From: Paramarasmius palmivorus
Lineage: Eukaryota > Basidiomycota > Agaricomycetes > Agaricales > Marasmiaceae
Assembly (NCBI GenBank): GCA_037176845.1
Contig: JAYKXP010000009.1
Location: 806,001 to 870,000, forward strand
Direction: 5' to 3'
Length of the DNA stretch: 64,000 bases
Shown here in pieces: positions 10,910-63,265 of this stretch (position 1 is its first letter; every line of letters begins with the position of its first letter). A program made the position numbers and the translations under genes. The notes beneath the pieces were generated by a model. The model made no database searches, was not told the DNA's origin, and saw only the letters and a program-made list of their open reading frames with translations.

Positions 10910-11228
10910 GAGGAACGTAGAATATCATGCATTCATGGTAGAGGGATACTGTCCAATGACGTTGACAGAAAAAAAAATGAGATCCGGAATGAAATCGGGA
11001 CCAGGATGACCCGCCGGGACGGTCTGCCGGACCGGTGCCGCACACGGCACGATTCAGTAAATCCGAAAACCCGACTTAAATCCGACAATGTTAAGCTGCT
11101 GAGACTGGAAGCTATAGATTTCGATGAAAGGGAAAAAAGACACAATAAATACACACACAAGTTAGTACCCATACTCAACTGTTTTGAACCCTTTCTCGTA
11201 GGCAAGTCAACACGCTCGTATCTTTCCT
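10910..11228. other. Intergenic, no gene seen
   Basis: Upstream region of the MFS gene and 3' flank of the second DUF6533 gene. It contains a GC-rich patch around 11010-11060 but no convincing frame. Confidence 0.5.
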
Positions 11229-15202: not shown

Positions 15203-16028
15203 TATGGCGTCGAAAACCTCAAAGCAGCAGTCCACCGATGTTCCCCAGCTGCGTAGGGTCAGACGCCTGGACCGTCTCTTTTCTCCCGCCAATTCAATCC
15301 AAAACTCGCGCCCTTTCCACGCTGGTTCATCTTGGTAGTGATCAAAAACCGACGGGAGATCACAGGTAATCATCTAGGACATCAATGGTTCTTCTGACTT
15401 TTCTGTTCAGCGTCGGTTTTGCACGAGATATCACGTCCCTTACCAGGTCTATGATACGCGGCCGTCAGGAATACGATTTTGATTCGGTCGACACCGTCCC
15501 ATTTATGCTCTAGTATTCATTCAAAGGCGAGTCCTTTTCTTTGGTCATTCTGGATGAAGTTCGATGCATGTGCAGCTTTGGGTCTTATAGGTTGGACTGT
15601 AAATCCAGGTTTTCGAAATTCACCTATCTAATTTGCAGGTCGGCGTCTCATAAATTCGCCGTTTGAATATCAGGACATCGACTGTTGGGGAAAGTACGAC
15701 TCTGATGGAGACGAGCTCACCTCCAACTCAGAACTGTAAGTATTGTCTTGGCATTCACTGTTTCTGCAGCCGGTACATGCTCAACTCCTGATATAGGACT
15801 CCAACCCATATATTTTCGGATCCGGCACCAAGGTATACCAAGCGCCTGACACCCAAATTGTACGTGAGATATGCATTGCACTCGGATGTCCGTTGTTTGA
15901 ACGTGTTCAGAGCCAAGGGCCCATTCTCTCGAGATGGTGTATCGCTGTACCTTTGGCCATGCTCGGTGCAGAGATTGGCTACCAAAATTTTCGCCAACAA
16001 AATGCTGACTGCGGTTATAACCGGTTAG
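15203..16028 (+). CDS. Hypothetical multi-exon protein
   Basis: Not recognised. The best-supported part is two exons, 15639-15735 and 15797-16028, joined by an intron starting GTAAGT. They read through INSPFEYQDIDCWGKY, an acidic patch (DSDGDE), then HIFSDPAPRYTKRLTPKLY, and end at a TAG. A possible first exon starts at the ATG at 15203 (MASKTSKQQSTDVPQLRR). The link between that exon and the two later ones is unresolved because several splice choices are possible. It ends about 310 bp upstream of the terpene cyclase start and is read in the same direction. It could be a chance frame. Confidence 0.35.
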
Positions 16029-44319: not shown

Positions 44320-44640
44320 TGAAGGTAGTACGGGGTGAAAATGAGTATGAGGATTATGTGAAGGGAATCACCACATCGGGAAAATAGGCAGAGAAAGTAT
44401 GTACAGATAAATACATTTCAAGTTTATAGTTTAGAATGAATGATATGAAATGATTGAGGCATATATATCTGTAAATAAATGAAACTAGATGAGCGTCAAT
44501 GATTTCGAACAATATAGATACAAGTAAACGAAAATAAATCAGCGTAAATCATTTCAGCCAATGTTAATGAAAGTAAATGGGCGTAAATAATATTAGTCGA
44601 TTTTAATGTAAGTAAACGCAAGTAAAGCGGTCATTATTTT
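44320..44640 (-). promoter_or_regulatory. AT-rich upstream region of copy B with TTTACnnnCATTTAC-type repeats
   Basis: On the minus strand this stretch repeats variants of TTTACTTTCATTTAC and holds CTGCCTATTTTCCCGATG closer to the gene. The upstream region of copy C (62760-63000, plus strand) has the same pieces in the same order. They probably represent conserved promoter DNA carried along with the gene family. Confidence 0.55.
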
Positions 44641-44788
44641 ACGCTCTACACGAAGTAACAAGTACACTACTCGTCATTCTGAAGCTCTGATGTGTGTTTA
44701 TTCCATGTACAATTTCTTTTAATCATAGTTCTTTTATAGTTCTACGCTACTGATATCGTACTAAGGGGAGGAAGACGACTTACCGCTC

Positions 44789-44804
44789 TTGATGGTGGTG
44801 GTAG
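44789..44804. repeat. Detached outer end of 85-bp palindrome arm, includes left target duplication
   Basis: TTGATGGTGGTGGTAG is the reverse complement of 61469-61484. Its last 8 bases GGTGGTAG (44797-44804) recur at 61307-61314 as the target site duplication of the hAT element. Joined to 61315 it completes the left palindrome arm. Confidence 0.8.
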
Positions 44805-44819
44805 TAGTGGTGCCAACGG
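44805..44819 (+). repeat. Left terminal inverted repeat of hAT element
   Basis: TAGTGGTGCCAACGG, 13 of 15 positions matching the inverted right end, immediately after the 8-bp duplication GGTGGTAG. Confidence 0.8.
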
Positions 44820-45126
44820 CGAGGCTCATTCACAGGCTTACAGGTTTGGTGAGGCTCGCTCGTCAAACCGTTCTAGGGTAAAGGTTTGCGGAGCGGTGAA
44901 CACCGGGCCGTTCCGAACCGTTTCCATGGCGTTAAGCCTCGGCTAAACCGAGGGTTTTAATAGTAGATTTTGAATTGTAATTACTGTACATTACTGGTGA
45001 ACAACGACTATTGAGCCATACAACGAGCGTGATTTAGATGATATCGATACATTATTTCAAAAAATACAAACAGATGAACGAATGAAACGCGATGCGCCGA
45101 GCAAGATAATACATCGTCAAGTACAA
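44820..45126. other. Left subterminal region of hAT element
   Basis: Contains GAGGCTCGCT and several AACCG or CGGTT motifs like the right subterminal region. These are the kind of repeats to which hAT transposases bind. No gene seen. Confidence 0.5.
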
Positions 45127-45643
45127 TTACCCCAACCTTTCCTTCAAGTCCTTCATGGCAGCTTTGATCTCGTCTAAGCCCTGAACCGATCCCGGAGCGC
45201 AATCAAAGAGCTCCATGTGTGTTCTTCCGCCTTGTGAAGCCTTGGTATCAGTAAAAAAACCCCCGAAAGAAAGCAAGAGACTTACATCCATCGCAGCGCA
45301 CAAACGGTCTGAGGAATCCTCGTCGCACGAGAGTGAGATGGAGGCAACGCTCTGCATCGTGTTAGCGCAATCGATCGGGCTAGAATTGAATGAACGTACC
45401 AAATTTATGAGATTTGGCGACTCGCATCATCCATCTGAACTGATATTCGTGTCCTTTGCACTGCGCGTTCCACTGCTTAACGCGTCACGTAACGTTCTTG
45501 GTGCGCCCAACTTTCCAGTAAGATTTCGTCTTCTTCTTGCCCTGTCCTCGACGAGTTCTTTCCAGAACGTAAATCCAGCCCGGTCGGTCGGCCTTCGTTG
45601 GTGTCTTCGCGAGAGCGAGCTTGAGCGCGTCGATTCGCGCCAT
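45127..45643 (-). pseudogene. T5orf172 (GIY-YIG-like) domain gene with in-frame TGA
   Basis: Exons 45643-45400, 45351-45286 and 45230-45127 join to a 137-residue frame containing one internal stop. The start is MARIDALKLALAKTPTKAD, then GWIYVLERTRR and YWKVGRTKNVT, then TGA at 45485-45487, then RVKQWNAQC in the same frame. The C-terminal part gives RCDGCGRTHMELFD and ends at 45127. The GWIYVLE, KVGRTKN, RVKQW and CxxCGxxHxELF blocks are typical of the T5orf172/Mug113 group related to GIY-YIG nucleases. The TGA may derive from CGA (Arg), as the motif expects RR. Everything else, including splice sites, is intact, so loss is recent or the stop is read through. An array of intron-like repeats lies upstream. 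Confidence 0.7.
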
Positions 45644-45689
45644 AGTCGGTGGAGAGACGACGAGTGACGAGACTGAGTGATGAAGGACG

Positions 45690-46130
45690 TGAAGTGAGAG
45701 AAAAAAGGTTAGCTAGCAACGTGTAGAAGGGGAAAAAGACGCACCTTAGAGCCTGAGGATGAAGGTGAAGGTGAAGGTGGGAGTATACTGAGCTGGAAGT
45801 AGATAGAAGGGGAAGAAAAACGTACCTGAGGGACTGGGATGAAGGGAAAAGAGGAAGAGTTGAGTCAAGTTAGCTGAGGACAAACAACAGGGGAAGAAAC
45901 CCATACCTGAGAGACCAGAATGAAGAGAAGGGAGGTAGAGTTGAGCAAGGTCAGCTGAGGATAAAAAGAAAGAGGAGATGTACGTACCTGAGGAACTAGG
46001 ATGAAGGGAAGGGAGGTAGAAGGAAGGTAGAGCTAAGAAAAGTCAGTTGAGGGCAAAATCAGCAGGAGGAGACTCACCTGAGATGGATAGGATGAAAAGG
46101 GAGAAGAGGAATAGCTGAAAGAGAGAGGGA
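45690..46130 (-). repeat. Tandem array of intron-like repeats
   Basis: About five imperfect units of 75-95 bp. Read on the minus strand each begins near GTACGT or GTATGG, is CT-rich, contains a CTGAC or CTAAC branch-like box and ends CTCAG. At least three junctions read CAG directly followed by GT. The array lies upstream of, and in the same direction as, the T5orf172 gene, so it would be in its 5' leader. Confidence 0.65.
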
Positions 46131-47111
46131 GAGAGCTCAGAAGAAACAGAACACAAGGAAGACTGCTAGTAACAAGATGTATGAAGAGCAACAAGGTAAA
46201 ATAGAAGATGACCTGGCAATGAGAGGCAAGGGAGGTGGAAAGGAGAGTGGATAGTTGGAAAGGAAAAGTTCAAGTACTAGAGTTGAAGGGAGAAGTGGGA
46301 GGATGTTGGAAAAGTAATGGAAAAAATCGAGACGACGACGGCCAAAGGAATCGCGCGTCGTAAGGAACGGTCATTTCTGCGAATACGATAACCGCCACCA
46401 CCTCTACCGTCGTTCCTTGTTCTCCCTGTATTGCCCTTCGGAAGCTGTGGTCCCTCGAACGCGCTGAACCCCCGAACGCGCTACACTGTCCCTAGAGCCC
46501 AAATTTGACGCGCTGAACCAACCCATCCCCCTCCCCAATCGATCCGGTACGTCTACGCTAACTTTCAATGCACAGATCGCGACTACTCCGCTCCCTTTTC
46601 GTCGGCCAACGTGTCGACTGCCGATGCCTTCCTTGCGTTGATCCTGGGGGATGTCCGGTCGTTGGAGGAGAGGAGGGGAAGTGTCGAAGGAAGGAGAAGG
46701 TGAAAGGTGGCTGAGGGAGCGGCCCTGAGTGGTCTTCAATCGATTTCGAAATACATCGTCTATAGTAGAACTATTGGCGCTTCAAGACTCGGCTTTTGGT
46801 ACGTTTGGCCTTGTTTGACAACGGCTTTACACCGGATTCCGACATTTGTCCGACGGTGCACTTCCGGTGCTTTCGGAGATGCACTTCCAGTTATGCACCC
46901 CCCGTTAACAGTGGCGATTAATTGGTATGTGAAAATTTGTAGGTACGAGGAAACGATAGCTTCTATACAAGCGATCGGGAAAAGTGATACTGCGCGCGCG
47001 CGAGTGAGCATCGGCACAATACCATTAGAATAGCCATTGGTTCCAGCAATGTAGGATCTAGTCCAAGTAGAATAGTAAGTAAAAATGCTACGTTTTGCAG
47101 AGAAGACATAC
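46131..47111. other. Part of hAT element with no gene recognised
   Basis: The first 250 bp are a purine-rich stretch on the plus strand (CT-rich on the minus strand), which suggests a promoter and leader for the minus-strand T5orf172 gene. The rest has only unrecognised short frames. Confidence 0.4.
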
Positions 47112-47560
47112 CGAGTAACACGAACATGTGTTGTGATCGTTCAGCTACGTGGCCCTTGAGACGTAGGAGGTACGAACGCTCGGGGGTTTTGAGTCCAAAG
47201 CTACAAGCGTAAATCAGACGTTGGCTCGGATAATAGAACATGCAGGACTTACGAGTTGTAGTTGAAATTACGGTTATAGATGATAGCGGGAAGAAGATCC
47301 TTGTGTTCTTGGACGATTTCATACGTCTCCTTTGCGATCATCCTAGACGGGCGGCCATTCTTGGAGATGAGTGGATAACAGTTGAGCAACATGTTCTTCG
47401 TCACTGGTACACAACGCGCCATATTCATATAGGTCCTTGATGACAGCTGAGAAACTCTTCTTCGTTTCCTTGTGAAGATTTGAGATGGCGATACGGGCGA
47501 CGATAACAGCGCTATCAAGGAACTTCGTGGTGAGGCATGTCAGCTGTGAGGTTCTATTCA
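47112..47560 (-). pseudogene. Ribonucleotide reductase large-subunit fragment
   Basis: The minus strand encodes [20 protein letters not shown], then KDLYEY, then after a disturbed stretch [20 protein letters not shown] and LLPAIIYNRNFNYN, then FGLKTPERSYLLRLKGHVAE and RSQHMF. These blocks match the N-terminal third of eukaryotic RNR1 (residues roughly 85-190), including a spliceable intron between NYN and FGLK. The catalytic barrel is absent, the 5' end is missing, and about 60 bp between KDLYEY and NGRPS shifts the frame. It is therefore a non-functional captured piece of a host gene, or a much-altered cargo gene. Confidence 0.8.
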
Positions 47561-47645
47561 AGTTGAGATCAAAATATTGCGAGAAGTAGAGAAAGTGGGA
47601 CACACATCGGGTTTGAAATAAATATCTAATCGGAGGTCACGTGTA

Positions 47646-47719
47646 TGTCTGTTGGCTTCATCGCCGAGGCGATTACTGGTCCCTTGAGCCGCGGAGAGGC
47701 CAGACATGTTCAAGGGGTG
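47646..47719 (+). repeat. 74-bp foldback repeat, copy 1
   Basis: Begins TGTCTGTTGGCTTCA and ends TTCAAGGGGTG. Contains inverted pairs TGTCTG/CAGACA and CCCTTGA/TCAAGGG. It lies between the 3' end of the Arg/Gly-rich gene and the RNR1 fragment. Confidence 0.8.
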
Positions 47720-47823
47720 TGCAGATTATTGTAACTCGAGCTTATACATCAGAGAATGTAGTTTACAAAGTAGCATGAAAGTACAAGATCAAGAAGATAA
47801 GATGTTATAGCGAAGATTATTGA

Positions 47824-48360
47824 CTACTTGTACCGTCCCCGACCTAGACAACCACCTTTTCCTCGACTTTTTCCTCGACCTTTTCCCCGACTTTTGCCTC
47901 CACCACTACCTCGACCGTGACCACTACCAGAACCTGGATTGACGCGACCACCACGGCCTCTACCCCTACTTCGGCTGCTACCCGCAATGTGACCGCTATG
48001 ACCTCCACCTGCAATCTGGCCTCTACCTCCACCTGGAATTTGACCACCCATAGGTGGTGGTGGTGGCGGCGGTGGTGGCGGCGGCGGCGCTCCTCTTCCT
48101 GCTCCTGCTGGTGCTCCTCTTCCGCCTCCACTTCCAAGTTGACCTCGACCCCGACCCCGTGGAGCACCTCGAGCTAGGTGTATGTGGCATAGAACCTCCG
48201 TGCCATCGGAGAACAGGGGGTGATTAACGCGCTCTGAATCACAATCCCGATATATCCATGGGTGGAATCCTGGTTCTATGTCGGGAGCAGTGTTCGAGCT
48301 CTCGATAGACGTGTTAACGATAGTATCCTCTAATCCAATAGTGAGTATAGGTGGACGCAT
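47824..48360 (-). CDS. Arg/Gly-rich low-complexity protein with polyproline
   Basis: The ATG at 48360 gives MRPPILTIGLEDTIVNTS and 178 residues to the stop at 47824. The first 60 residues are ordinary in composition (GFHPWIYRDCDSERVNH). After them the protein becomes RGRGRGQ and GGRGAP, then a run of 12 prolines, then GGGRGQIAGGG and a tail of RGKGRGKSRGKGG repeats. RGG-rich tails commonly bind RNA or nucleic acid; no folded domain is recognised. It is one of three Arg/Gly-repeat proteins within the hAT element. 74-bp repeats flank it on both sides. Confidence 0.55.
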   Translation of the reverse strand: MRPPILTIGLEDTIVNTSIESSNTAPDIEPGFHPWIYRDCDSERVNHPLFSDGTEVLCHIHLARGAPRGRGRGQLGSGGGRGAPAGAGRGAPPPPPPPPPPPPMGGQIPGGGRGQIAGGGHSGHIAGSSRSRGRGRGGRVNPGSGSGHGRGSGGGKSRGKGRGKSRGKGGCLGRGRYK

Positions 48361-48619
48361 GATGAAAATCACATACCCGATTCGCTCTCTGACATTTGTG
48401 TGCAAATTAAACCTGCTCGCGACGTCGTTTAAATACTCTCCCCTAGCTCTATCCTTAAACAGACTCTTCTATGCAATCAAACTTTTTTTTTTGCCTCGTG
48501 AAGATGCCCGAACAAGGGCTGTTGCGGTTCCTAGAACCTGATGCAATGAATTAGCGAGTACGTGTAGAGTACGTCAATGATGAAGAGCTACGAACCTGTC
48601 GGCTATACTTTAATGACAA

Positions 48620-48693
48620 TGTCTATTAGCTTCACCGTGAACCGGCTACTGGTCCCTTGAGCCACGAAGAGGCTAGACATTTTTCAAGGGGTG
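48620..48693 (+). repeat. 74-bp foldback repeat, copy 2
   Basis: Starts TGTCTATTAGCTTCACC and ends TTTTCAAGGGGTG, in the same orientation as copy 1. It lies between the 3' end of the NGN/KOW gene and the start of the Arg/Gly-rich gene. Confidence 0.8.
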
Positions 48694-48790
48694 GAAGACA
48701 CAATATTAGGTATGATATTTTATTTACGGCTCAATAACATAGATGATTTAGAACTACATATGCTATGCCATGACCGAAAGCTTGTAAATA

Positions 48791-51700
48791 TTATAGTTTG
48801 CTCCTCTTTCTCTTGCGCACTCCATTATCCTCTTTTACATCTCTAGCCTGCTGATACATAAGTTCAAAGATAGACTTCTTCACCTCGATCTGACAGGCGT
48901 CGACAGCCTTGATGCAGTATTGTTGGTCGCGCTGTACGTCTCCAGTTTTGACGTCAACAAGGCAACACGCGTACGTAACCTCTGCGTGAATTGCACCCCG
49001 TGGTACCGGCACAGTAGCAAGGCGGACAACGCATTTGCCAGCAGGCTCGCCCCTCAGCACATACGATGCTTTCCTGGTCCGCACAGTGATGCCCTTCGTT
49101 TCGATCCTCATTTGATTGGGCAGAATGCGATCTTGCTTTTCGTGATTGTAGAAGATACATCGATCTCCCAATTCTGTAAATCCAAGCGTAACAAGCATTT
49201 CCTGACCGTTGAACGAGTGCACATAACCATTGTCTCGGCCGAATAGTTTAACCCAGAAGGCGAATTTCTCTGGTCCTCCTCGGAGCTCGTAAAGCCAACG
49301 GTGGCTTGGGTGCGCATCCTCAGACCAGGTTCGACGAAGACGTGTATTGACAGGCGCCAGTAGCAACTCCATCACACTCCGAATGCCTTCGTCAGAGATA
49401 TCTGTGTGTGGCTGTTGCGACGGGGAAAAACTATAGGTGTCTGAGAACGCATTATGTCGTGGAACTAAACGCATGGCGTGCTGTCTTGAGGCTTCGGGAT
49501 CGTTGTCGTCAGCGAATGAGGAATAATTCCAAGACCCCGAAGAAAGTTGCGGAGGAAGATAGCGAGATGATGATGATTCACCGTAGTATGTTTCGGGATG
49601 GTATTTTGGATGGCTGTACCCGACACGAACAACGAATGGCGGTTTAGGAGCATCAACAATATGGAGTGGCATCTGCGTGCTAAGATGAGTTAGTAATTAG
49701 CAACCATACGATGAGAACGAGTACTTACGCCAAGTCGAGTACGTAGTCATAGTCAACTTCAAATCTAAGTCCTCCGGCACCATGCGCAATCCACTCCGCT
49801 TGAATGGCCAGGCCGCTGGCTGTCTGCCGTCCGAACATGACATCCATCACCCGTGCTCTGCCTCTGGCAGGCTTGGCAAAGATTTCCACTTCTCTGTACA
49901 ACCAAGGTACGTCCCGGGTGTGACTGTTGCGAATTTCACGGTCGATTTGAGCTGGAGTAAGGAGTTCTGGATGCTTTTCAGCCAATAGATTTTGGATGTA
50001 CCTCGGATCCACCTTGAGAGCAGCAGTCTGATATTCTGCAGCGTCTATCCACGGAATGCCTGGTTTGACGAGAGAGTGTAAGGTTCGCTGTTCCGGGGTG
50101 TAACGAACTAGGAAATTCGGCTCCGCTAGTATTTGAGCATCCTTGGTGTAAACGAGTGTTTGTTGGTGGTTGACACCATGAAACTCATGATGCTCCACCA
50201 CAAAACCATCCCATCCATAGACTGTGTGTTGAACTAAATCACCAGGCTTCCAAAACTTCTGGGCACCCCATCCGATATGCCTTCGCACATTGTTGCCATC
50301 CAACGTGTACATTCCATCTTGTTCTATCGCAATCACCTCCCCTTCTATACCCTCTACCCTGGTTTGAACTCTATCACCGACCTGGAACTCCCAGCCGGAC
50401 ACACGCGGAAAGTGTTCTACGAGGAATGGATGTCTGGAGGAGTAGAAGAGTAGACCTTCACGTGGTGTGAGGTGTCGATGAAGGGGCTTGATGAATTCAG
50501 TGGAGATTTGTTCTACACGTAGGCCATGCTCGTGGTTGTACTTGCAGGCAGACACAAATTCACCAGATAGCGACTCGGGATGAAATAGGCACTGCGCTAT
50601 ATCACCGTGATGAGCTCCATCAAATGGTATTGCTTTCGTCGGTATCCGTGGAATGATGAGGACCCTGACCTCTTTATGACCGGATGATATGATCAAAGCA
50701 GCGTCGCCGTGATAATATCTCAGGCTGTGGCACTGTTTGAGTATGGTGGGTGATATCAGGGACTTGGAACTTTGACCAGCTGGCTTGGATTGGAGTAGAT
50801 CATCGTCTTCGGACTTTGAACCTGGGTTGTCTGAGGATGCGGATACGGATACGGGTAATTCCTCTGCAGAGATAGCCCATATATCATCTCTAGGAAGAGG
50901 TAGAGGTGGAGGTGGAGGCGTTTTGTAACGAACTTGACTCCTTTTCGGCTCATGTGGTGGACTGGTATAAAGTGATACCCAGCGACCAACCATGTACTCA
51001 AAAGGAGTTTTGTCGTAATGATCTGTGAGCATCTTCAGGGACAACGGAGCTTCGAAAGCGTCCATTTGAACCATTTTGATGCCATTCAATCCATCTGCAT
51101 CCCGAACTACGTATGGACACATGCGAAAAGCAACTGCCGTCAAGCCAGGGTTCTGGGTTTCGACGTAGAGAAAGTTGTCCTTTGTTCGTCGTGCATAGAT
51201 GTTCACATCGCAATTGGCTGGCCTCTTGTTTTTGAACGTGTCGCTGAAGCTCTTCCACCATTTGATAACATCGTGCTGGCGTTTGCGCTAGGGAAAGGTC
51301 AATCTCAGTGAGAAAGTAATATCAGTATTATGACATACATGAATAAATAGGAGCCATATTGGCTTTAAGCCGAACTCTTGATGCGCCTTCTCTCTGCGCT
51401 CTATAACTTCGGTGTTCTGATTATCGTACAATGCTAACATCGTTCTTCGAGCATATTCGAGTAGCTTGTAATTGGCTTTACCCTTCTCGAAATCTATAAA
51501 ATCTCTCTCAGGTACAGGTAATAATTCTGCATCACCCGAGCTGGTCGTAACGGCATGATAATTGATTGGAGAGCCATCGTCCTCGCCCTCATCATCTCCT
51601 GCAATGAACCCGTCTATCGGAAGTTTAGATACACTCATAAGAAGAAACTATGAGCGCATACCTAAATCTTCCTCGTCGTCATCGTCCTCCTCGTCGTGGC

Positions 51701-52472
51701 TGACCTCGGCCTCAATATCGAGGAACCTTGAAGGGCAGTCCACATCTTTCACATTGCGCTTTCGCTTTCTCGATCTCCGACTCTTGACCTCTTCCTCATC
51801 CACAGAGTCCAAATCTTCCCCCGACAATAGTTCTTTGGCATGCAATGACACCTTGTTCTCAACCTCCATTGCCGGATTAACCTGTGGGCCTTCTACTAAT
51901 TCCTCTGCCTCCGCCTCTATGCCTCGAGTGGTCGACATTGCGTGCACATCTTGCTCCCTTTCTGCTAACTTGTTGATGGGCTCTTCCGGTGACTCTGGTG
52001 CTTCCTTCGTGCTAGGTCGTTCAACTATTGTCGGTAACGGAGCGTCTCCTTCACCATCACACTTCTCAGGCTCTCCAGCACTGCCATCTGAATGATTGCT
52101 GTCTGCTACCGATGTATGAGGTTCCGGTGATGGCGTATGTGTGACCTCTCCCCTGAACGTTGTCAGAGAGTATCCAAAGTGCCCTGTGAGGACTACTCGG
52201 CCGTTCAACATGCTGTACATGGGTATCACAGACATGTCAGGGGATGAATGAGGAGAGGGAGAAGGAGAAGCGATGGTATCTGAGTCACCAGAACCAGAAG
52301 TTCCTTCGGCTTTCGTAGATGGAGGGCTAGATGTCGAGGGACGACTGCCTTCTGAAGATACATCTTCGATGGCCTCCGGTTCTCTGATGTTCTCGGGCAT
52401 TTTGGGAGATCTTGGTGTGCTTGAACATGGAGGCAGAGGTGGTTGGATTGTGTAGCTGTGGTCTTCGATCAT
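48791..52472 (-). CDS. NGN/KOW-domain (Spt5-like) protein
   Basis: The ATG at 52472 starts MIEDHSYTIQPPLPPCSSTP. The first 270 residues are acidic and Ser/Pro-rich with KSRRSRKRKRNVK and an acidic cluster. Then come KWWKSFSDTF, NIYARRTKDNFLYVETQNPG and KMVQMDAFEAPLSL, like an NGN domain, and FEYMVGRWVSLY. Two KOW-like units follow: WEFQVGDRVQTRVEGIEGEV and FWKPGDLVQHTVYGWDGFVV. The C-terminal 290 residues (GRDNGYVHSFNGQ and others) are not recognised and end in KRKRSKL. Joins through 51648-51640, 51288 and 49725-49672 keep the frame. Spt5 binds RNA polymerase II; this derived protein lies inside the hAT element, so a role in cargo expression or transposition is speculation. Confidence 0.75.
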
Positions 52473-53669
52473 TCTACCTGTGCTTGTCGTTTCTTTCCGC
52501 TTGATACAAATTGCGACTTGTCTCCTGTCAACTGCATTAGGGCTGCACTGGAGCCCTTTGAATCGCTGTGACCTGGCAAGAAAGCATTTCAGTTGTAGGT
52601 TCTAACATTTTTTTTTCGATGAAAAACTTGGAAAATCGAGTTTGTACTTATTTCTCTTGGGTTCATACATTGATTGTATCTACTGTATAATACATCGTAT
52701 ATTCAAGTCGATGCCTTACCTCTATGAAGAACGTTCAGCACAACGTCAAGAGTGTTTGCGGTTGAAGTAAAAAATTATGTAATCAGTATAGGTACCGAAC
52801 CATGAGGCTTCGCATCAGCGGAGGTTGCAATCACCTGAGAGAAAGGTTTCACCAAGCCTAGCCGAACATGTTCACCGATCGTTTTGCATCTTTCCTTCTT
52901 ACCCCCATCTCCATTTCCCGTTCCCCATTGTAGTCCCTCGCTGTACGTGTAGTATGAAATGCATGTAAATAACGATGAATCAAGTAAGGGCTAAGCAAGG
53001 ACTAGAACCCAAAGAGTAGTACAATGCGAACAAAAAAAGAGTACAAGGTCATAAGGCGTAAGCTCCAGTACCGTCTCTGTGCGATTGAACGAGGCTCATG
53101 TCATTGCCAGGCGGAAGGCACCGCCTTATCGCAATGTGTTTGCAGGAACAGGGTGTTACGTCGCAGGAGTGGGTGATGGTGAGTGTCAGTTTTTTTTTAT
53201 CCCTCTTCTGTTCACCTTCTATGTACAGATTCCGAACAATCTGAGATACGCGAGGACGTATTGCACCCACGTCGATACGCAATTTTCTCCTCGTTGGACA
53301 TTTTATCCCGCGTATCACCTTCCCTTCATTCCTGGGCGCCCGTGCATGCAGCCCAACATGCACGACATGGACCTAATCTGGTTAGGTGTTTCTCCTACGT
53401 CTTCGATGAGATTTACTCACGATACTCACGTTGCTAGAAACCAATCCACTCTGAGTTCCAGTTCGTACCCTCATTTGCTCCGGTTGACATACGTATTAAT
53501 CTCGCAATAGCTAGGTCGCCTATTAGATAAAGAGTGGGGACCAGCTACGGTACTTGGCCATCCACGCTCAATTTGAATGGGAAAGTATCGATATCAAAGG
53601 GGCAAGATATTCAGGAAGAGAAAGGGGCGAAAGGAAGGAAGAAGAAAAGCGAATAACTTGCGGCACTCC
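52473..53669. other. No firm gene; possible exons
   Basis: On the plus strand a frame with GTGCYVAGVGD can be spliced (donor near 53174, acceptor near 53229) to SEQSEIREDVLHPRRYAIF, but no start or end was found. The rest looks non-coding. Confidence 0.3.
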
Positions 53670-54004
53670 ATGCCTCAGAAAACTCCTGGTACGTTCGTTT
53701 CCTGTGCGTTTAGCTTTATTGACACTTCCATAGCCATCTTTGAGGTTCTCAAAGTCCTCCGAACGCTTTGCAACTGGCGATCGCAAACGCTGTGGTCATT
53801 CGACTCCCTTGAAACCCAGTCAGTTACTCCTTCCATTGCGCGTACATATCTAACGAATTTTCTCCCATCAGGAAACCATGTATCATGATGGAAAGTCACT
53901 GCGCCGATTCTCCTGGGTACGAGGACGATTTCATTGGCGGTACGGATTTCAGCAAGGAGGAATGTTGTTCCTTTCCGTATCCACTTCTAGAGGAGGTTGA
54001 TTAG
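53670..54004 (+). CDS. Small putative protein, 78 residues
   Basis: Three exons (53670-53688, 53734-53818, 53872-54004) join with GT-AG introns. The protein begins MPQKTPAIFEVLKVLRTLC and ends with an acidic, cysteine-containing stretch (ESHCADSPGYEDDF, EECCSFPYPLLEEVD). No family is recognised. It is inside the hAT element upstream of the transposase. Good splice signals and a clean stop support it, but short frames of this kind can occur by chance. Confidence 0.3.
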
Positions 54005-54260
54005 TTAGACCTGCTCTTTTTTGGGGTATCATAGTACGGTACACTATCCTAGATCGCATTGCATTCAGTGCCCAATCGGGCTAATACCTTAGAGGTCAAG
54101 CACGGGGATCTCTCATCAATGAGACCGTTTCCATCTCGCACCTTCGCCGTTTCGCTTCACTTCTATTGAAAGCAACGGGCCGACTCATTACATATCATCT
54201 TTGCGAGGATCACGAACCAAACCGTGCTGATTTTTTCGTCCCGATTCACCACGCAAGTCG

Positions 54261-54663
54261 ATGTCTCTGATGCCATCGACTCGCATAGTGACCCTTTGTC
54301 AAGGTGAGAAGGGAGCTTCTCTACAGGGCTTGATGGAGCTGGACCCTGTCATCCACAGAACAGAATTCGATACACAAATCTTTGGTGGCAGCTTCTCAAG
54401 CTCCGAATTCGGTCACCGCCTTGGTATGCGACACAACTTTGCAGCGTCCGGCATTGTCGGTAGGTCACATTCATCTTCTTTGGGGTTTCCTTTTCTGATC
54501 TTTGGTACATGTCGCTTTCTTCCAGATGCAAAGGCGACGCGTCAAAGCCCTAAACGCGTTGGTATGTTCGCATATCAAGTTAATCCCACTAAGCTTTTCA
54601 TCGGTAAGTATCGAGACTTGAAAGAAAGTTGGTCGCATTTCAGTCAATCTAAACTTCGTGTAA
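54261..54663 (+). CDS. Small putative protein, 86 residues
   Basis: Exons 54261-54423, 54526-54603 and 54644-54663 join in frame. The protein has MSLMPSTRIVTLCQGEKGA, then ELDPVIHRTEFDTQIFGGSF, and ends KLFIVNLNFV. Not recognised. A 74-bp foldback repeat begins 12 bp after its stop, the same arrangement as at the other two repeat copies, which makes a real gene somewhat more likely. Confidence 0.35.
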
Positions 54664-54675
54664 CGCGTTAAATAG

Positions 54676-54749
54676 CACCCCTTGATTGTGTCTGGCCTCT
54701 TCGCGGCTCAAGGGACCAGTAGCCACTTCGGTGGTGAAGCTAACAGACA
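54676..54749 (-). repeat. 74-bp foldback repeat, copy 3
   Basis: Plus-strand sequence starts CACCCCTTGATTGTGTCTGG and ends AGCTAACAGACA, the inverse of copies 1 and 2. It is 12 bp after a small plus-strand gene and about 290 bp upstream of the transposase ATG. Confidence 0.8.
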
Positions 54750-55037
54750 CCTAAATCTGAGATGGTTGTATATATCGGGCGCTTCAAGTCTCAGCACCGC
54801 TCCAAATTGACATCGCTTCCAGACACGCCTCAACATGCATCGGATAATCACCCTGAAAATTTTCCAAAGACTAATGACATACCAGACGTAAATCTTCACG
54901 GAAGTACGCATTCCGGCAGGTACAGAAAGAATTCCCAGCACAGTTTTAACATGTTGACATTTCTCCTAGTTAATACCGTTTAAAAGGACTCTGTGTGAGG
55001 AAATAATTCCCCCCAAGTCAGCTTACTCTATCCATCT

Positions 55038-58000
55038 ATGGCAAAGGAATCTAGCCGTGGTCGTGGTCGTGGTCGTGGTCGCGGTCGTGGTCGCGGTCGC
55101 GGTCGTGGTCAAGCCCAGCCAGGTAGGTTTAAACCATCCTCAGCCTTCCTTCAATATCATTGATTTGTAAAACCTATAGCTCCTGACGTGGATCCTCGAC
55201 AAGAAGACCAAACGTTCACCGTACCTGAAGAAGCTCTGGATACTGACGGAGGTGAGGTAAAGATGTTCTGCCTATGTTCTCGGACTTACATCGAACCCAG
55301 TGCCCGAGCAGGGGTCGACACCAGAGATGCAAGCCCCATTGCCGTGTGCCAATCCTACGTTCATGGAGTCGTTCGAGTTCTCTGACCTGACTCCATTGGG
55401 TACGTTTTCATTATTATCTTCCGTTTGTTGCGAGTTAACACATGGAATAGAAACATCAGGATCGTTCAATCAGCTTGTTCTCCCTGCAATGGGTAAGTAG
55501 TCCTTCGATTTAACACTGTATTCTAACTAAAATGCGATTAGAAACATCAACCCCACTCAGACCTCGACGTTCGTCAAGACCCAAAACCCCAACGCGTCTA
55601 CCCTTGCCCAGGACGGTAACGGTGGTCGAGCCAGGTCGAAAGAAGAAGAAGAAAAGCAAGAGTAAACCGAAACAGATAGCGCTGGAGAGTGCCACTCCTC
55701 AGCGAGCGTTGCGATTATGTACGTGAATGTCACACCCACCTCAAACGATTCTCTGACCTTGGCTTCATCATTCAGACCAGCGAGCCGGAGAAGTCTTCTC
55801 TCTTGGGCCTATCAGTTACGCCACGCCGAGACAGGCTCCTCGTGGACGTGCCGGGGACCCAGGGACTGTTCATTTCGAGGACGACACATCTGGCGAATTC
55901 ATCGATGTGGATATCGGCTTGGACGTCGACACCAGTGAAGACGAGGACGACGAAGGCGAGGACAATAGCGACGAGGACAGTGATGGTCCTCCCCCACCTT
56001 CGCCAACTCGTCGAAACCTTCACAGTAAGTACATGTCCTTGGTTTAATATCGACAACGTACTCACTTTCAATATCTTTTAGATCCATCTCCCCGATTGAG
56101 AAGGGCAGGTCCACGAGGAGGCCGACACACCCCTCGACGAAACGAGATCAGGACAACCACCAGCTCCAGGCGTCAAGTCACAGACTTTACTAGCAGTCCA
56201 CCGAGGGCAACCGCTGGCAAAGGGATGACAAAGGAGAGAGAGAAGAGGGCAGTCGACGTCCACACATTTTTCGTGTTAGTGAACGGAAGATATTGTTGTG
56301 AACTGTGTAGACAGTGAGTTTAACTTCTGGTAGCACGCATTCCTTTAACTAACTGGATTATAGAGAGAAGGACAAGAGCGACGACCCGGAACACTTCAAC
56401 ATTGCAAATTATAATAGGGGAACTTCAAGCTCGACCATGCGCAAACATCTTATCAAACATATGAAGGTTTGGGTATCTACGTGCGACAAACTTGGAATCA
56501 AGATAGACGCCCAGAATGTCAATGATGAAGTCGCGAAGTACCGAGCAGAGAACGACGTTCCTGTACCATCAGGCCTAGGATCGCAGCAACTGGAGGCATT
56601 TTCAATCGATGGTTTGCAGGTTGTGCTCATGGATCTTGTCGTAATTGAGGATCTCGTGAGTCACCTACACCTCACTGTCATTGCGTTACTTATTGTCATG
56701 CAGCCTCTTAACTTCGTGGAGTCCAAACGTCTCGTACACCTTATCCTCTACCTGAGGCGAGATATTACCGCCGACCACATTCTGGGTCGCACAACTATGA
56801 AGAACCTTATCATTCAAACTTGGTATGCCCACATGCATCGCCTGGCTCAACAATTCAAAGTATGTGTTTCGTGTTTCTGCATTTGCATTAGCTTATAGGG
56901 AGTATTAGGACGCATTAGGGCGCATCTCATTTACGACTGACGGTTGGACCGACATCGTTCTCTTTCCATTCATGGGTATCACAGCCCATTGGATTGATGA
57001 ATGTACTGTCGTAGAGAAGTCGTCGAAGGGTGAAGTGACGTCCCACACTTACCTCCGACTTAGAAACGAAGTCATTGCCTTCCATGAAGTACCAGTATCC
57101 CACACGGGTATTCATCTAGCTGAAATCTTCATTCGACTGTTGGTCCGTGTAGGCGTGCTGAAGCAGGTAAGTCACCAGCGTTGTTCATCGTTGCAAGTTT
57201 AACACCATCTTATTATAGATCGGTTGGGTCTCGTGCGACAATGCTTCGAACAACGATACTATGCTTGAACATCTTGAAAATCGTCTTATTAGCCAGGGAG
57301 TGCACTTTGACCGGTATGAAAACCATATCCGGTTAGTCTATTCATTTTTCCCGGATCAGTGCGCTAACGTTTGTCCAGATGCTTTGCTCATATCCTTCAC
57401 CTCGGCGTCACCTCCATTCTGGAGGCAATGGATGCAGTAGACCTGGCTTCGATATACGCTACAAAAGATGGGGGAAGGATGCCACCAAACCATGATGGTC
57501 GAATCCTAACACGAACGCGGGGCATGGTTCGCGAAGTAGGTCCTCTCCTTTTCTACGTTCGATCTAATTCTGATCCTGAATAGTGTCGTGCATCAAGTCA
57601 ACGTCGAATTGTCTTTTCAAGCATCGTCAGGGCTGCACGAGAAGGCCAAGAACTCATGCTCGTTCGGGATATTCCCAACAGATGGTCCTCTGCACACAAT
57701 ATGACATGGAGGTCATTGGAGCTTCGACCAGTAAGGCTGCGTCTTTCCAAACATTGCACAAGCACTAATTCCTGTTGGCAGCAACTCGAGGTCTTTCAAG
57801 CCCATCCTCAACACGGCCGCGATGTTGGTCCACACATCCTTCACCGATATGAGTGGGTGGCGCTCGAAAAGTGCGAGGCCGTACTCAGGGTACGTGGTGA
57901 TTCCCATTTCGTCCATAAAACCACTGACATCTTCTCAGGTGCCTCACGCCTTCCAGCACTTCTTGTCCAGAGAGGAGGCGCCATCTCTGGCATACGCAAT

Positions 58001-58952
58001 TCCGGCGTTCTACGCTGTTATAGAGGCTTGGGAAGAGCAGCAAGTGCAACACCCGGAACTGGAAAATGTCATCCAGCCTGGCATCAACAAGTTGAAGGAC
58101 TACCTTGATAAGATCGACGACGTCCCCGCGTATTTCCTTTCAATGGGTAAAAGACTAAATGTTCTATCCAATGTCCGCACTCATCGCATTGCAGTCATCA
58201 ATCCCGAAGTCAAGTTCCACTGGATTGAACGACAAATTCCTCACCGAAAGACTCACATCATGCGAAGGTTGTACACCGAGGTCAGTCAATGAGTACTTTA
58301 TTGCGAGTGATACTGAATTCGTTACAGCTCCGCAAACGACAGCCTTCATCTCCTCCGCCCCCGCCTCAACAATCTAATCACAACGCTCAACCCCTTCATG
58401 ATGATGATTGGGCGTTGAGGGTCCTTAAGATGAAGCCGTCCCAGGAACAGCCACGTCCCGATGGTACCGTAGAGGCCGAAGTGGAAGCTTATCTCAACGA
58501 TTCGACGCCTGTACCAGCAGGGAAGAAAGGTCTATTGCAGTACTGGCAGGCACGTATCATTCTTTTCGTCGTTACAATCGACACTGACCAAGTATTATCT
58601 ATAGTTAAAGCGACACACATATCCACACTTGTTTCTGCTGGCCATCGACCTTCTCCCTGTACAAAGCACTTCATTGCCATGCGAAAGACTTTTCTCAGGG
58701 GCTAGACGCACAAAAACCGACACCCGTACGCGCCTGGGCAATGAAGTAATGGAGGCTACCCAGATACTCAAGGCATCTGGCAAAAAGGAAGGTACCTTAC
58801 ACATGACGAAACATCTATCCCTTTCTGCCGACATGGAGGAGCTCGAGAGTATCTTGCGAAGGGAGGAGGAGCATGTAATTGAAACGGACGACATTGATGC
58901 ATTTGTTTCGAGTTTAGGGGACTTTTCTTTCGCAGAGGTAGTGGATTTATAG
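55038..58952 (+). CDS. hAT-family transposase with BED zinc finger
   Basis: The ATG at 55038 starts MAKESSRG followed by a run of Arg-Gly pairs. An acidic, Ser/Pro-rich N-terminus leads to a BED-type finger (VNGRYCCELCR, then HLIKHMK). The catalytic core includes ISFTTDGWTDI, with the first Asp, and IGWVSCDNASNNDTM, with the second, then ENHIRCFAHILHLGV. Next is DIPNRWSSAHNM, then VPHAFQHFLSREEAPSLA. The C-terminal dimerisation region reads YWQLKRHTYPHLFLLAID, STSLPCERLFSGARR and TDTRTRLGN. At least ten short introns all join in frame and no stop was found, so the enzyme looks complete and may be active. The element ends at 44805 and 61306 are its likely substrates. Confidence 0.85.
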
Positions 58953-59173
58953 ATTTTTGACTAGTAATCTATCTATCTAGCTTGCATTTTCTTGTAGTCT
59001 CCCCTAGGCAGACTCAATCGCTCGCAGTAATTTTCTTGCATTTTTTACTGTTATAGCTCGGTTCTTTGGGCATTAGTAATCTTTTGTCAGCATTAGTCGC
59101 ACGTAGAATCGTGAGAAGAAGAGTCTTTGTTTCCTTTCTCGCTGTCTTCCTCTCTCCATCCCAGTTCCTCACG

Positions 59174-61035
59174 ATGAATCTCAGGCCTAGGAAGCAGCTC
59201 AGGTCTGGGAAGCATCTCATGATGACACCACTGCAACCCCCTTCACCTCCTCCACCACCCCTTCCAGAGATCCGAAACAATGAAGAAGACAACGAAGACA
59301 ACGAAGACAACGAAGACAACGAAGACAACGAAGACAACGAAGACGACGGAATCAAAGACACCCTCGCAGTCCCTGACCACATCCCAACTTTTCTCATACA
59401 ATGCAATATCTCTGCACCGCTGGACTCGGCGGGCTTTAAACTCCCAGAAGGCACTCCAAGGCTGACGCACCACCTCACCCTTAAAATCCCACATGCTGTC
59501 GTCAACGCCATAACGGACCACACCGTTCAATGGATTTATCATATGATGAGGTGCATTGTGAACGAAGAAGGCACGCTCAGTTATGAAGGAACAGTAATCG
59601 AACCTACAAGCAACTTTGTCGTTCCAGAGCGGGCTGTTCTCGACTTCGAAGTCCGTGAGTGTAAAGCGTACTTACACCATTCTTTTCTGATCGATACTCA
59701 GGCTACGATTCCGGCTACATTGCCGACCCCGCAGCTATGGTAGAGCGTACCAGTGTCTCCTCCCAAAACGAACGACGAGATTCCAATTTTCGCAAGAATG
59801 TCATGGAACGTGATGAAATGGAAAAGGAAATCGAAGGGAAAATGTTCCGCTATCCTCAATGCGTCCTCGTCGAGCGTCTATCCGAGGTCTCTCCTGATGT
59901 TTCTCCCACATACTATGTGTCTGGATGTCACGCAATACATCTCATTCCTCATGCAAAAGCCAGCCATGTAAGTGAGCAACACGAATGATACTAGGAAACC
60001 TGTCTAATTTCTCTACTAGTACATCTCTTTCATGACCAACTGCGATATTACCAACATTGACGACGTACGCAATGGTCTTTTCATGACGAGCTCTATACAT
60101 TCTTGTTTGGGACAATCTCCTAACGAAAAGGGCAAAAAAAAGACCCCTCCGGTGTGTAGCTTTATGAGAGTGAGTTCCGTCTTTGGTGGAGCCTGCGCTT
60201 CCAGCTAAGCTTTCTTCAGATTCCCAATGACTTTTTGAAGAGAGAGCATATCAAGATACACAACGAAGTTGACCAAATGAAGCTCCCCGACGATCCTGGC
60301 ACTATGTCCGTCCATTTTCATATCCTCTCAATCATGCACAAGCTCCATATGAATCCTCTCAACGAACTCGTAAAAGTCGGACAACAGCTTTGGGATGGCA
60401 AAGTCGTTAGACAACCCCTTGAGAGGCACCACGCAAACAGTGTACCAGGTTATCTGCTGGATTATCACTATGGGTGTGTTGCCCTCGCCGTGTTTGTCCA
60501 GAAAAGAGGGGCATATAAACAGGAGTATAGGAGATTTGCCAAGCTTATCCAGGAAATATACAATCTAGGCGGTGGAGCGTATCTTCCAGAACGTGAAACC
60601 AGTGACAGTCGAGGTCGAGGTCGGGGTCGGGGTGGAGGCAGCGGTAGCGGTAGCGGTCGGGGTGGAGGCAGTGGTCATGGCGGAGCTAGCGGTAGTGGTA
60701 GCGGTCGGGGCGGAGGCAGTGGTAGCGGTCGGGGCGGAGGCAGTGGTAGCGGTCGGGGCGGAGGCAGTGGTAGTGGTCGGGGCGGAGCTAGTGGTGGCCG
60801 CCGGGGTGGTAGGGGGAAGGGGAAGGGAAAGAGTGGCCGGGGGCAGGGAGGAAGGAAGAAAACAGGTGGGGCAGGCCATGCTCAGACAGACCAGATTGAA
60901 GATATGGACCCGGAGGTGGAATTCGTCGACACCCTTTGGACTTTGGCTGTGTTTACGAGAAACTCTAGAGACATCCAGCAAAAGAACACGTCGATTCAAG
61001 CCTGGAGTGAAGGAGTTTCTGCTGGGGCACCTTAG
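59174..61035 (+). CDS. HNH endonuclease-like protein with Gly/Arg-rich tail
   Basis: The ATG at 59174 gives MNLRPRKQLRSGKHLMM, then a proline run and repeats of NED. A middle exon has YYVSGCHAIHLIPHAKASHY, and the next gives CDITNIDDVRNGLFMTSSIH. This AHLIPHAK...DDVRNG...LH order is the HNH_2-type nuclease core, with a His in the IPHAK block and the NG...H pair. The expected first Ala-His of the core reads CHAIH, a slight variant. Further exons give PDDPGTMSVHFHILSIMHKL and LLDYHYGCVALAVF, then a tail of about 80 residues of SGRGGG and RGRGRG repeats. It lies next to the right end of the hAT element, same strand as the transposase. The role may be DNA cleavage linked to the element; untested. 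Confidence 0.65.
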
Positions 61036-61291
61036 TTCTATGTTCTTGTTTCACTGCCCCTTGTGTTCTTGTGATGTACCCTATTCATTGCTGCTGGTTT
61101 ACTTGTATACAAGCCTCGTACTACGTATATCATGAATGTCACGCATACTTTCTACTTGAAAATTAGAGGGAGTTCGAGCTTTGGCTTAACCGTTCAGAAC
61201 CGCTTTACGGGCCGAGCCGGTTTCTTGAAATGGTTCCGAACCGGAACCGTGCCGACGTTCAACAAGCGAGCCTCGAACCAGCCGAACCGGA

Positions 61292-61306
61292 CCGGTGGCA
61301 CCTCTA
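61292..61306 (-). repeat. Right terminal inverted repeat of hAT element
   Basis: Read inward on the minus strand it is TAGAGGTGCCACCGG. It is followed outward by the second copy of GGTGGTAG at 61307-61314. Confidence 0.8.
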
Positions 61307-61314
61307 GGTGGTAG

Positions 61315-61484
61315 CGAACAAAGAGTGAAAAATTCCGAGGCCTCGGCGCGCGGCAGGCCTCAGCTTGCAAATCTTGTGTTTGTTGAAGCACGTGCCTGTA
61401 CAAACACAAGATTTGCAAGCTCAAGCCTGCCGCGCGCCGAGGCCTCGGAATTTTTCACTCTTTGTTCGCTACCACCACCATCAA
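61315..61484. repeat. 85-bp near-perfect palindrome (part of left arm, loop, right arm)
   Basis: The right arm is 61400-61484. The left arm is 61315-61383 plus the 16 bases at 44789-44804 now beyond the hAT element. The arms match at 83 of 85 positions, and the loop is 61384-61399 (16 nt). Both arms include GCGAACAAAGAGTG and GAGGCCTCGGCGCGCGGC. It lies near the midpoint between the divergent NTPase-nuclease genes B and C. Confidence 0.9.
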
Positions 61485-62759
61485 CGACGACGAGGGCTCT
61501 TGCCCGTCATTCAACAGTGTAAGTTCCGTTTTTTTCGCGTAGAATAGATGAAATATAAAATAAATGTACAGCGCAATGAATATTGAGCGTTAAAAAGTCC
61601 ATAAAAACCTGAATACGTCCCTATGTCTCACATGAAAAAGTCCTAGAATCAATGCTGACCCACTGTTTCAGGATACTGTGGGCACGTCGTCGTCGCTAGG
61701 GCTTCATCGTCATTGATGTTGGATGTCCATCAACTACTCGACTTGGAGGCTGCAGCGTATTGGGGTGGATACAAGAGTGAGGAAGACAAATCATCTCCAG
61801 CGTTATCCACTTGACTCAAAGCCCAAGCCAAGACTTGCCAGCTTCTTGTTCGATACATAGGGACTCGGGAGAAGGCTGGAATGCGAAGCTCGGAGATGCA
61901 GGTATGTATTCAAGTTACCTTGATTGTTCGAGGTACTCATATACTGTTTCGACTAGATTTTGCAATCATGGTCACTGAAAAAGAGTCAGCGTCTTGGGAG
62001 CCTTCAGTCTTACCCTCTCCACCAAGCGTGAAAGATGCATTCCATGTCTCACTTGTTCAACTATAGAGTCCCAGGACCTAGGGAGATACATGTATGTGAC
62101 CAGCATCTGTCTCCTTTGTTACTCGGCTAATCACCGATACCTATCACCAGCAAAGACTCTGATTCGACTTTTCATGTTCTCGTTGCAGCAAGTCGGAACA
62201 GGTGGTGTCCCGGACTGATTTGTTCGACCACAGATTCATGATAGGATGTAAAGCCTGTGCTCGGATATGCATATGTCAATTGCACGGGTACGTGTTCAAC
62301 GTTCATCTCCTTTGTGCTTGGCATTCACCCAGACTATTCCAGCCAGTTTTAAAGATTGACAAAGTACGGTACGGTCTACGGGTCAGTCGTAAACCGTATC
62401 AACCGTACCGCCCGACGGTCTTACGGCCGTCAATACGGGTTGGGTGGGCGGACACACTGCGGCTTCCAAGTTTGGTTCAATACTCATGGTATGTTTTCTT
62501 TCGTATTCCTCAGTTGAGTCAGCTCTCTGATGTGACAATGCAGAGCCCGGGTGTTTCGGGCTTCGGCGATTGGTTATTAAGGAATTGGGATGGACTCATT
62601 ATACATGTGTACTTGTTATCGTATCAGCTATGTTTGCGTGCTCCTGCTATTGTAAATTAGTTTATTGTTGGGATTAATGTATGGGGGTGCTGTACCATTG
62701 AGGAACCGTCAGTAAGAGGTCACTATATATTGCCAATAGTTCGCCGAAATCAAGGTAAT
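61485..62759. other. No gene recognised between palindrome and copy C
   Basis: Only short frames without domains. At 62364-62408 there is a cluster of TACGG and CCGTA motifs forming an imperfect foldback, possibly an old transposon end. Confidence 0.35.
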
Positions 62760-63265
62760 GGAGAGTATTTCACCTAAATGATTTCGTTGATTTACTTTCA
62801 TTTACTTCTACATATATAAAAGCGACGTCTGTTTTATTTCATTTATTTTGTCCAAATCCATTTAAATAGATTTCAGCAAAGTATGTATATTTCGTTGCTT
62901 TATCTACGTTTACTGACAACTAATTTCCCTGCCTATTTTCCCGATGCACTATTGCAGAGTGTGGGTGCCATAGTAGCTCGATAGCATGCACATTTATACG
63001 ACCAAAGCACAAGCATCAGTTTGGTCTGGAGAACAAATGCATACGAACCGAAAGACAAATGCTCCTTAATATAGTTGTTGACGGTAACCAGGAAACTCCG
63101 CGTCGGACAGAGGTAGGAACAATAAGGAGATCAACGTAATTTACGGAATCTATGTACACGTGTTTGAATTCCAACCGTGGGATAACGTTCACGCCAGTAA
63201 GGCCAGGATGACCGAAAAGCACATTTCCTCCTCACTTCCCTTCGCTATTCAACCCAAAGCCATCC
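62760..63265 (+). promoter_or_regulatory. Upstream region of copy C
   Basis: Holds GATTTACTTTCATTTACTT, a TATATAAAA box at 62813-62821, and CTGCCTATTTTCCCGATG at about 62930. The repeats and the last motif also occur upstream of copy B in the same order relative to the gene. Confidence 0.5.

Follow-up and report, generated by a model that had tools for sequence, protein, structure and literature searches.

hAT transposons are usually elements of a few kb. The accounts of the superfamily available to us give their terminal inverted repeats as 5-27 bp. The portion of PMC5640933 on which we draw reports 230 fungal variants of the hepatitis delta virus (HDV) ribozyme from 26 species, with cleavage in vitro for two of them, and describes as their features a cleavage site with a C-G pair, a loop E that stands in for part of P4, and one additional nucleotide separating P2 from P3. 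That source gives widely variable gene associations and states no role for the variants, and the word "transposable" is absent from its main text. We analysed a stretch of the Paramarasmius palmivorus genome (C9:806001-870000, the 64-kb window; contigs are labelled by C-number in an assembly of 68.3 Mb and 393 contigs) that contains element A at window positions 44805-61306. The joint explanation that we favour, and consider probable, is a large hAT transposon from a family of conserved layout, with self-cleaving HDV-like ribozymes that would cut the transcripts of the element and an SPT5-like protein that would act on elongation.

Element A and its relatives

Element A was a single hAT insertion of 16,502 bp with the following main features (window coordinates).

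44805-61306, no strand: whole element A, delimited by terminal repeats, duplication, restored target and collinear relatives
44797-44804, no strand: left 8-bp target duplication GGTGGTAG
44805-44819, plus: left terminal inverted repeat
61292-61306, minus: right terminal inverted repeat
61307-61314, no strand: right 8-bp target duplication GGTGGTAG
44371-44804, no strand: left part of the repeat hit by A
61315-62947, no strand: right part of the repeat hit by A, including a foldback palindrome
55038-58952, plus: hAT transposase gene, 994-aa spliced model
48791-52472, minus: SPT5-like gene, 1086-aa spliced model
47646-47719, minus: Rz1, HDV-like ribozyme candidate
48620-48693, minus: Rz2, HDV-like ribozyme candidate, about 100 nt past the SPT5-like stop codon
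54676-54749, plus: Rz3, HDV-like ribozyme candidate, upstream of the transposase

The left end from 44805 reads TAGTGGTGCCAACGG and the right end, reverse-complemented from 61306, reads TAGAGGTGCCACCGG. These 15-bp terminal repeats (2 mismatches in 15) are short, as in hAT elements, and the duplication outside them is exact and of the 8-bp hAT length. The window held 36 TAG/CAG-type end pairs with an exact 8-bp repeat outside them and a spacing of 0.5-40 kb, and the pair of A was the only one of these with terminal repeats at 4 or fewer mismatches in 15. At the start of the right flank the sequence is already inside a near-perfect palindrome, of which the left arm is only partly present; with position 44804 joined to 61315 that arm becomes complete, and 176 of 186 positions are identical. 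The joined target aligned uninterrupted over 376-379 of 379 nt to C177 (98%), C27 (96%), C363 (93%) and C151 (93%), with nine more matches at 71-82% identity starting before nt 60 of the query. These uninterrupted sites are paralogous copies of the target repeat and not the same locus in another strain. The target repeat itself is 2.07 kb long and has inverted ends ATCGGGAAAATAGGCAG.

A DNA search of the genome with the whole of A returned 78 matches. The copy on C250 (element B; C250:26952-46108, 19,157 bp) was collinear with A over its whole length, most of the blocks common to both being 67-74% identical in nucleotide sequence. Two further relatives, called by their contigs, were complete: C87 (C87:109470-123870, 14,401 bp) with ACTCTTTG at both flanks and C167 (C167:42418-65627, 23,210 bp) with CTTGGTAT at both flanks. 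An exact 8-bp duplication was thus present in A, C87 and C167, and terminal repeats of the same kind as those of A in B, C87 and C167. The preliminary description of this DNA had proposed one 16.5-kb hAT insertion with terminal repeats and an exact 8-bp duplication, which the ends, the unique pair, the restored palindrome and the target copies confirm; the other full copies that it called for, similar in their ends but flanked by other 8-bp duplications, are those on C87 and C167. A is one of a family of elements 14-23 kb long whose layout is conserved: one strand carries a T5orf172/GIY-YIG gene, Rz1, a small RG-tail gene, Rz2 and the SPT5-like gene, and the opposite strand carries Rz3 (in three of the four elements) and the transposase gene.

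Other relatives were less regular. C145 has an end on each side with unlike flanking 8-mers (GTCTGGAC and TGGTAGAC), and the right end of C114 carries GTCTGGAC, read in the same sense as in C145, so the flanks of C145 and C114 may have been exchanged by assembly error or by recombination between copies. C145:24045-45612 also holds two SPT5-like copies about 6.9 kb apart, its partner locus being C114:145111-160593. The C79 relative is truncated by the contig start, and C73:50677-52819 consists of the right-hand gene of A and an internally deleted right end. Contig C250 terminates exactly at the terminal repeat of B (46108), as if the assembly had broken at a repeat or a single-haplotype site. 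Nested within the C167 SPT5-like gene lies a further element (element coordinates 10720-15693), with direct terminal repeats of 387 bp that are 99.7% identical.

Spliced gene models were made with a custom script that used the similarity of the four elements (A, B, C87 and C167) to one another. The C167 SPT5-like model was left out, as it runs through the nested long terminal repeat (LTR) element. For the transposase of A the model is 994 aa long and free of internal stops, with its first small exons uncertain, and an apparent TAG in one frame falls in an intron that A shares with C87 and C167. The hAT C-terminal dimerisation domain (PF05699) was found above its curated cut-off in A (E 5.5e-5) and C87 (E 3.2e-13). 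Motifs resembling the DDE blocks are visible. A further Pfam match, SurA_N (E 0.0094), fell below its cut-off and was taken as spurious. The preliminary description had seen a full-looking BED-finger hAT transposase: the 994-aa model and PF05699 bear this out, whereas the finger (C..C...H...H) was seen by eye and the Pfam scan gave no BED match. Nonsynonymous (dN) and synonymous (dS) divergence, which lean low since they come from well-aligned blocks and similarity-guided models, were 0.08 and 0.58 for the C87/C167 transposases and 0.23 and 1.23 for the A/B SPT5-like genes; dS of the transposase was 3.4 for A/B and, like that for A/C87, at or beyond saturation. Both genes appear to be under coding constraint. 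A related transposase occurred on 15 contigs, six of which also carry an SPT5-like gene (C9, C250, C87, C114, C145 and C167).

HDV-like ribozyme candidates and the SPT5-like gene

The preliminary description had overlooked three ribozyme-like RNAs within A. A repeat search found 74-nt inverted repeats flanking the SPT5-like gene, a genome search found the same sequence at many relatives, and the three 74-nt copies of A (Rz1, Rz2, Rz3) have an HDV-like ribozyme topology. The pairing order on the sense strand is P1-P2-P3-P3'-P1'-P4-P4'-P2', which is the HDV order with P1 as a pseudoknot. P2 as drawn runs directly into P3. The CU of L3 could pair with the AG of a J-segment to form P1.1, and this pairing is near invariant, hence without covariation.

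A core pattern of 33 positions occurred at 26 places in the 68 Mb and the reversed pattern at none. P1 was complete at 25 of these 26 places, P2 at 25 and P3 at 24, some of the places being near-identical copies. The first P1 pair was C-G at 25 places, like the cleavage-site pair of the fungal HDV variants, and AGUA and GAA around P4 (25 places each) agree with a loop E. J4/2 read (A/G)AAGCNAA at all 26, and its C would presumably be catalytic by analogy to HDV. Covariation was assessed in P2, P3 and P4 of 17 distinct copies against 500 shuffles, with P1 left out of the pair counts as the alignment misplaces it by one base. Of 255 such cells, 98.0% were paired, which no shuffle reached; 22 cells had changed on both sides (0/500 shuffles), and seven pairs carried such a change (4/500). 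The covariation score of the 74-nt RNA was likewise reached by none of the shuffles. Rz3 of C87 has a P1 of CTCCCGA/TCGGGAG as against the usual CCCTTGA/TCAAGGG, three pairs having changed on both sides; this is the one copy with a two-sided change in P1, the covariation lying otherwise in P2 and P4, and C246 has further two-sided changes in P2. Sequence and structure together give strong evidence for fungal-type HDV-like ribozymes, predicted to be self-cleaving.

The genomic positions of the core matches were highly ordered, with 25 of the 26 lying inside the elements or 3' of an SPT5-like match on its sense strand. Fifteen were directly 3' of the SPT5-like match, 14 of them between 51 and 157 nt beyond the end of the frame, with five of these 14 at about 121 nt; the fifteenth, on C7, was at 375 nt, where only an internal part of the gene matched. 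Seven lay further along the same strand, six of them at 1.07-1.19 kb and that of C167 at about 3.1 kb. Three (in A, B and C87) were upstream of the transposase on its sense strand, and for the remaining one, a degenerate match on C24, no partner was found. At six of the SPT5-adjoining places (C31, C45, C106, C179, C246 and C270) the SPT5-like gene in front shares just 23-26% identity with the genes of the elements, and the genome transposase search found no related transposase on these six contigs. The near-constant distance behind such diverged genes is our chief ground for linking the ribozyme with the SPT5-like message rather than with the downstream genes alone.

The models of the SPT5-like protein were of similar length in A (1086 aa), B (1120 aa) and C87 (1116 aa). 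In the acidic N-terminal region typical of SPT5 the protein has a motif, RFLDIEAEVS..DEE..DFI, in common with yeast SPT5, and a four-sequence profile of the motif matched yeast SPT5 at E 8e-4. Pfam gave a weak YajC match in four of the nine members scanned (best E 0.047) and single other matches. A homologue search with the main exon returned one metagenome protein at 58% identity, a search with the C270 relative returned no match, and a 3-kb piece beside the C270 gene held no recognised open reading frame (ORF). Divergent SPT5-like matches also lie inside two pairs of ATCGGGAAAATAGGCAG-type ends about 11 kb apart (C11:359822-371028 and C68:6836-17952), which points to a possible second family of transposons with such genes.

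Accessory genes, proposed mechanism and alternatives

Four further genes or gene pieces were recognised inside A.

45127-45643, minus: T5orf172/GIY-YIG gene, exon limits approximate (PF10544, E 6.4e-7), with relatives in B, C79, C87 and C167
47007-47547, minus: apparently captured ribonucleotide reductase (RNR) large-subunit fragment, 91% and 85% identical to C88
47824-48405, minus: RG-tail gene, motif FHPW..PLFSDGTE, start unsettled, conserved in A, B, C87 and C167
59174-61035, plus: right-hand gene, acidic repeat and RG/GS-rich tail, a dispersed family, 94-95% identical to C73

The spliced model of the T5orf172 gene of A was mis-spliced, and its straight translation was used in its place; PF10544 was stronger in C87 (E 3.9e-11). 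Its relatives lie near the left end of B, C79, C87 and C167, with about 50 residues matching in C167. Eleven contigs had matches to this gene, among them five (C169, C139, C69, C42 and C185) outside the elements examined in full. The RG-tail gene sits between Rz2 and Rz1 in all four elements. In diverged relatives the T5orf172, RG-tail and SPT5-like genes reappear in unchanged order, which assigns them to the core of the element and not to its cargo. The RNR fragment, named from its sequence with a Pfam score below the cut-off, consists of two pieces with about 240 bp missing between them. The family of the right-hand gene gave 39 matching rows in the genome, its own and the C73 copies included, with 25-50% identity in the more distant members. 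Neither the RNR fragment nor the right-hand gene had a match in B, C87 or C167, so both look acquired. The cargo genes of the preliminary description are therefore in part confirmed, several genes being present and these two apparently acquired, but three genes belong to the core; that interpretation was partly right, in that A is a large multi-gene hAT element with a conserved core in place of free cargo.

Two smaller observations concern the repeat hit by A and short pieces elsewhere in the genome. A foldback palindrome with arms of about 93 bp lies at window positions 61307-61484, within the target repeat. Rfam matches by E-value, to a plasmid antisense RNA family and, on the palindrome, to animal microRNA families, were taken as artefacts, the weak microRNA matches arising probably because the palindrome is a long hairpin. 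Two 483-bp pieces with hAT-like ends TAGGGGTGCCAACGG/TAGGGATGCCAACGG (C33:26780-27262 and C52:288371-288853) are perhaps small non-autonomous elements.

We propose the following mechanism. A has the anatomy of an unusually large hAT DNA transposon that looks autonomous; it would move by cut-and-paste with its own transposase, leaving 8-bp duplications. The predicted ribozymes would most likely cut the transcripts of the element during their synthesis. Cuts at Rz2, shortly after the end of the SPT5-like coding region, and at Rz1, farther along, would part the SPT5-like message from the genes behind it, the message thereby ending without an ordinary poly(A) end, and Rz3 would trim the 5' side of the transposase message. 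The SPT5-like protein would probably act on elongation by RNA polymerase II over the genes of the element, which is the weakest step. More tentatively, the family may possess its own transcription-control kit, made of an SPT5 paralogue whose message ends in an HDV-like ribozyme and the same ribozyme 5' of the transposase. Were this so, the element would have a means of tuning elongation, termination or silencing across its genes, the SPT5 message would need no ordinary poly(A) signal, and DNA transposons, not retrotransposons alone, would spread HDV-like ribozymes through fungi.

Several results weigh against this proposal. Rfam returned no HDV family, either at the gathering score or with E-values allowed up to 5. 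Further pair types in the RNA numbered 11 against a shuffle mean of 11.1, a value reached by 366 of 500 shuffles, and P3 had no two-sided change and two broken cells. Rz3 was not found in C167, and an SPT5-like gene was not found on nine of the 15 contigs bearing a related transposase. The likeness of the SPT5-like protein to SPT5 lies in the N-terminal motif; a whole-protein profile reached only E 0.47 against yeast SPT5, no Pfam NGN or KOW match was obtained in the protein of A or the nine members scanned, and an AlphaFold model of the main exon from nine sequences had a mean confidence (pLDDT) of 40 and was not used.

Among the rival explanations, it is somewhat unlikely that the ribozymes work for the downstream genes, in forming 5' ends and in translation as in R2 and L1Tc, and not for the SPT5-like message. 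Each ribozyme has a downstream gene or conserved frame, the RG-tail gene behind Rz2 and the transposase behind Rz3 among them, and the HDV-like ribozymes of non-LTR retrotransposons act in this way in the accounts available, yet the ribozyme also follows directly on six SPT5-like genes that lie outside the known elements, and this ties it to the SPT5-like gene. It is improbable that the 74-nt RNA is a non-cleaving structure, such as a protein-binding or transcription-termination hairpin of the SPT5-like gene. Its near-constant distance behind the stop codons of deeply diverged genes and the silence of Rfam would suit such a role, but a pseudoknot P1 kept by compensation, the invariant C in J4/2, the C-G cleavage-site pair and the AGUA and GAA around P4 all resemble the cleaving fungal HDV variants.

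The structure of the element invites two other readings. A Starship-like carrier that picks up host genes and moves them for the benefit of the host would account for the RNR fragment and the dispersed right-hand gene, unmatched in the relatives, and perhaps for the longer, unannotated left sides of B and C167; with an incomplete RNR piece and the other genes recurring as core, we give it little probability. The preliminary description had likened A, as an element moved by a hAT enzyme, to the large ascomycete cargo elements, a likeness that goes no further than size: the first gene is T5orf172 and the transposase hAT, so that membership of the Starships was rejected, and no DUF3435 captain was found among the ORFs and models of A that were scanned, which were not every ORF. 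It is very improbable that the ends are paired by chance or that the span is a nest of smaller elements. The GGTGGT-rich flank eases an 8-bp repeat, and the SPT5-like gene with its ribozymes and the right-hand gene occur separately elsewhere in the genome; against this, no other pair in the window is of its kind, joining the flanks restores the palindrome, 13 target copies are uninterrupted, and B, C87 and C167 keep the same order between the same kind of ends. On these sequence grounds we rejected this reading, and retain the large hAT transposon with ribozymes and an SPT5-like gene.

Comparison with known systems

Among the papers listed in searches of the open-access literature we recognised no HDV-like ribozyme in a hAT element and no hAT element with an SPT5-like gene, which is a weak absence. 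The ToxhAT/ToxTA element (PMC12506042) is, in the parts of that paper on which we rely, a 14-kb fungal DNA transposon with extra genes, formerly called hAT. It differs from A in its 2-bp TA duplication, its 74-bp terminal repeats and its wheat effector gene, and we discarded it as a hAT precedent, its authors having reassigned it to Tc1/mariner. With ToxhAT moved to that group, a 14-23 kb hAT family with conserved accessory genes widens the known load of hAT elements. Starships, as described in the sources available, are also fungal transposons carrying extra genes, but they have a tyrosine-recombinase captain as first gene and are far larger, and A shows neither.

The SPT5-like protein shares its N-terminal motif with the elongation factor, as in yeast, and differs from it in having no Pfam NGN or KOW match and a long C-terminal region of unassigned kind. 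The ribozyme candidates are the part most likely to surprise specialists. Their double-pseudoknot order, C-G cleavage-site pair, loop E-type sequence by P4 and J4/2 C resemble the fungal HDV variants as the excerpts of PMC5640933 describe them, whereas no extra nucleotide stands out between P2 and P3, and the candidates of this genome occur almost exclusively in a transposon family and with SPT5-like genes. That nearly all core matches lie in this family or behind such genes suggests both a role, the processing of mobile-element transcripts, and a vehicle for spread. A and the non-LTR retrotransposons R2 and L1Tc, in the accounts available to us, are alike in being mobile elements that carry an HDV-like ribozyme with a possible part in processing their transcripts; that of the retrotransposons stands at the 5' end of an element that moves through RNA, whereas A holds three copies, on both strands, inside a DNA transposon. 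The 8-bp duplication, the short terminal repeats and a transposase with the hAT C-terminal domain place A within the hAT superfamily, from which its family differs in its size of 14-23 kb, its conserved T5orf172, RG-tail and SPT5-like genes and its HDV-like ribozyme candidates.

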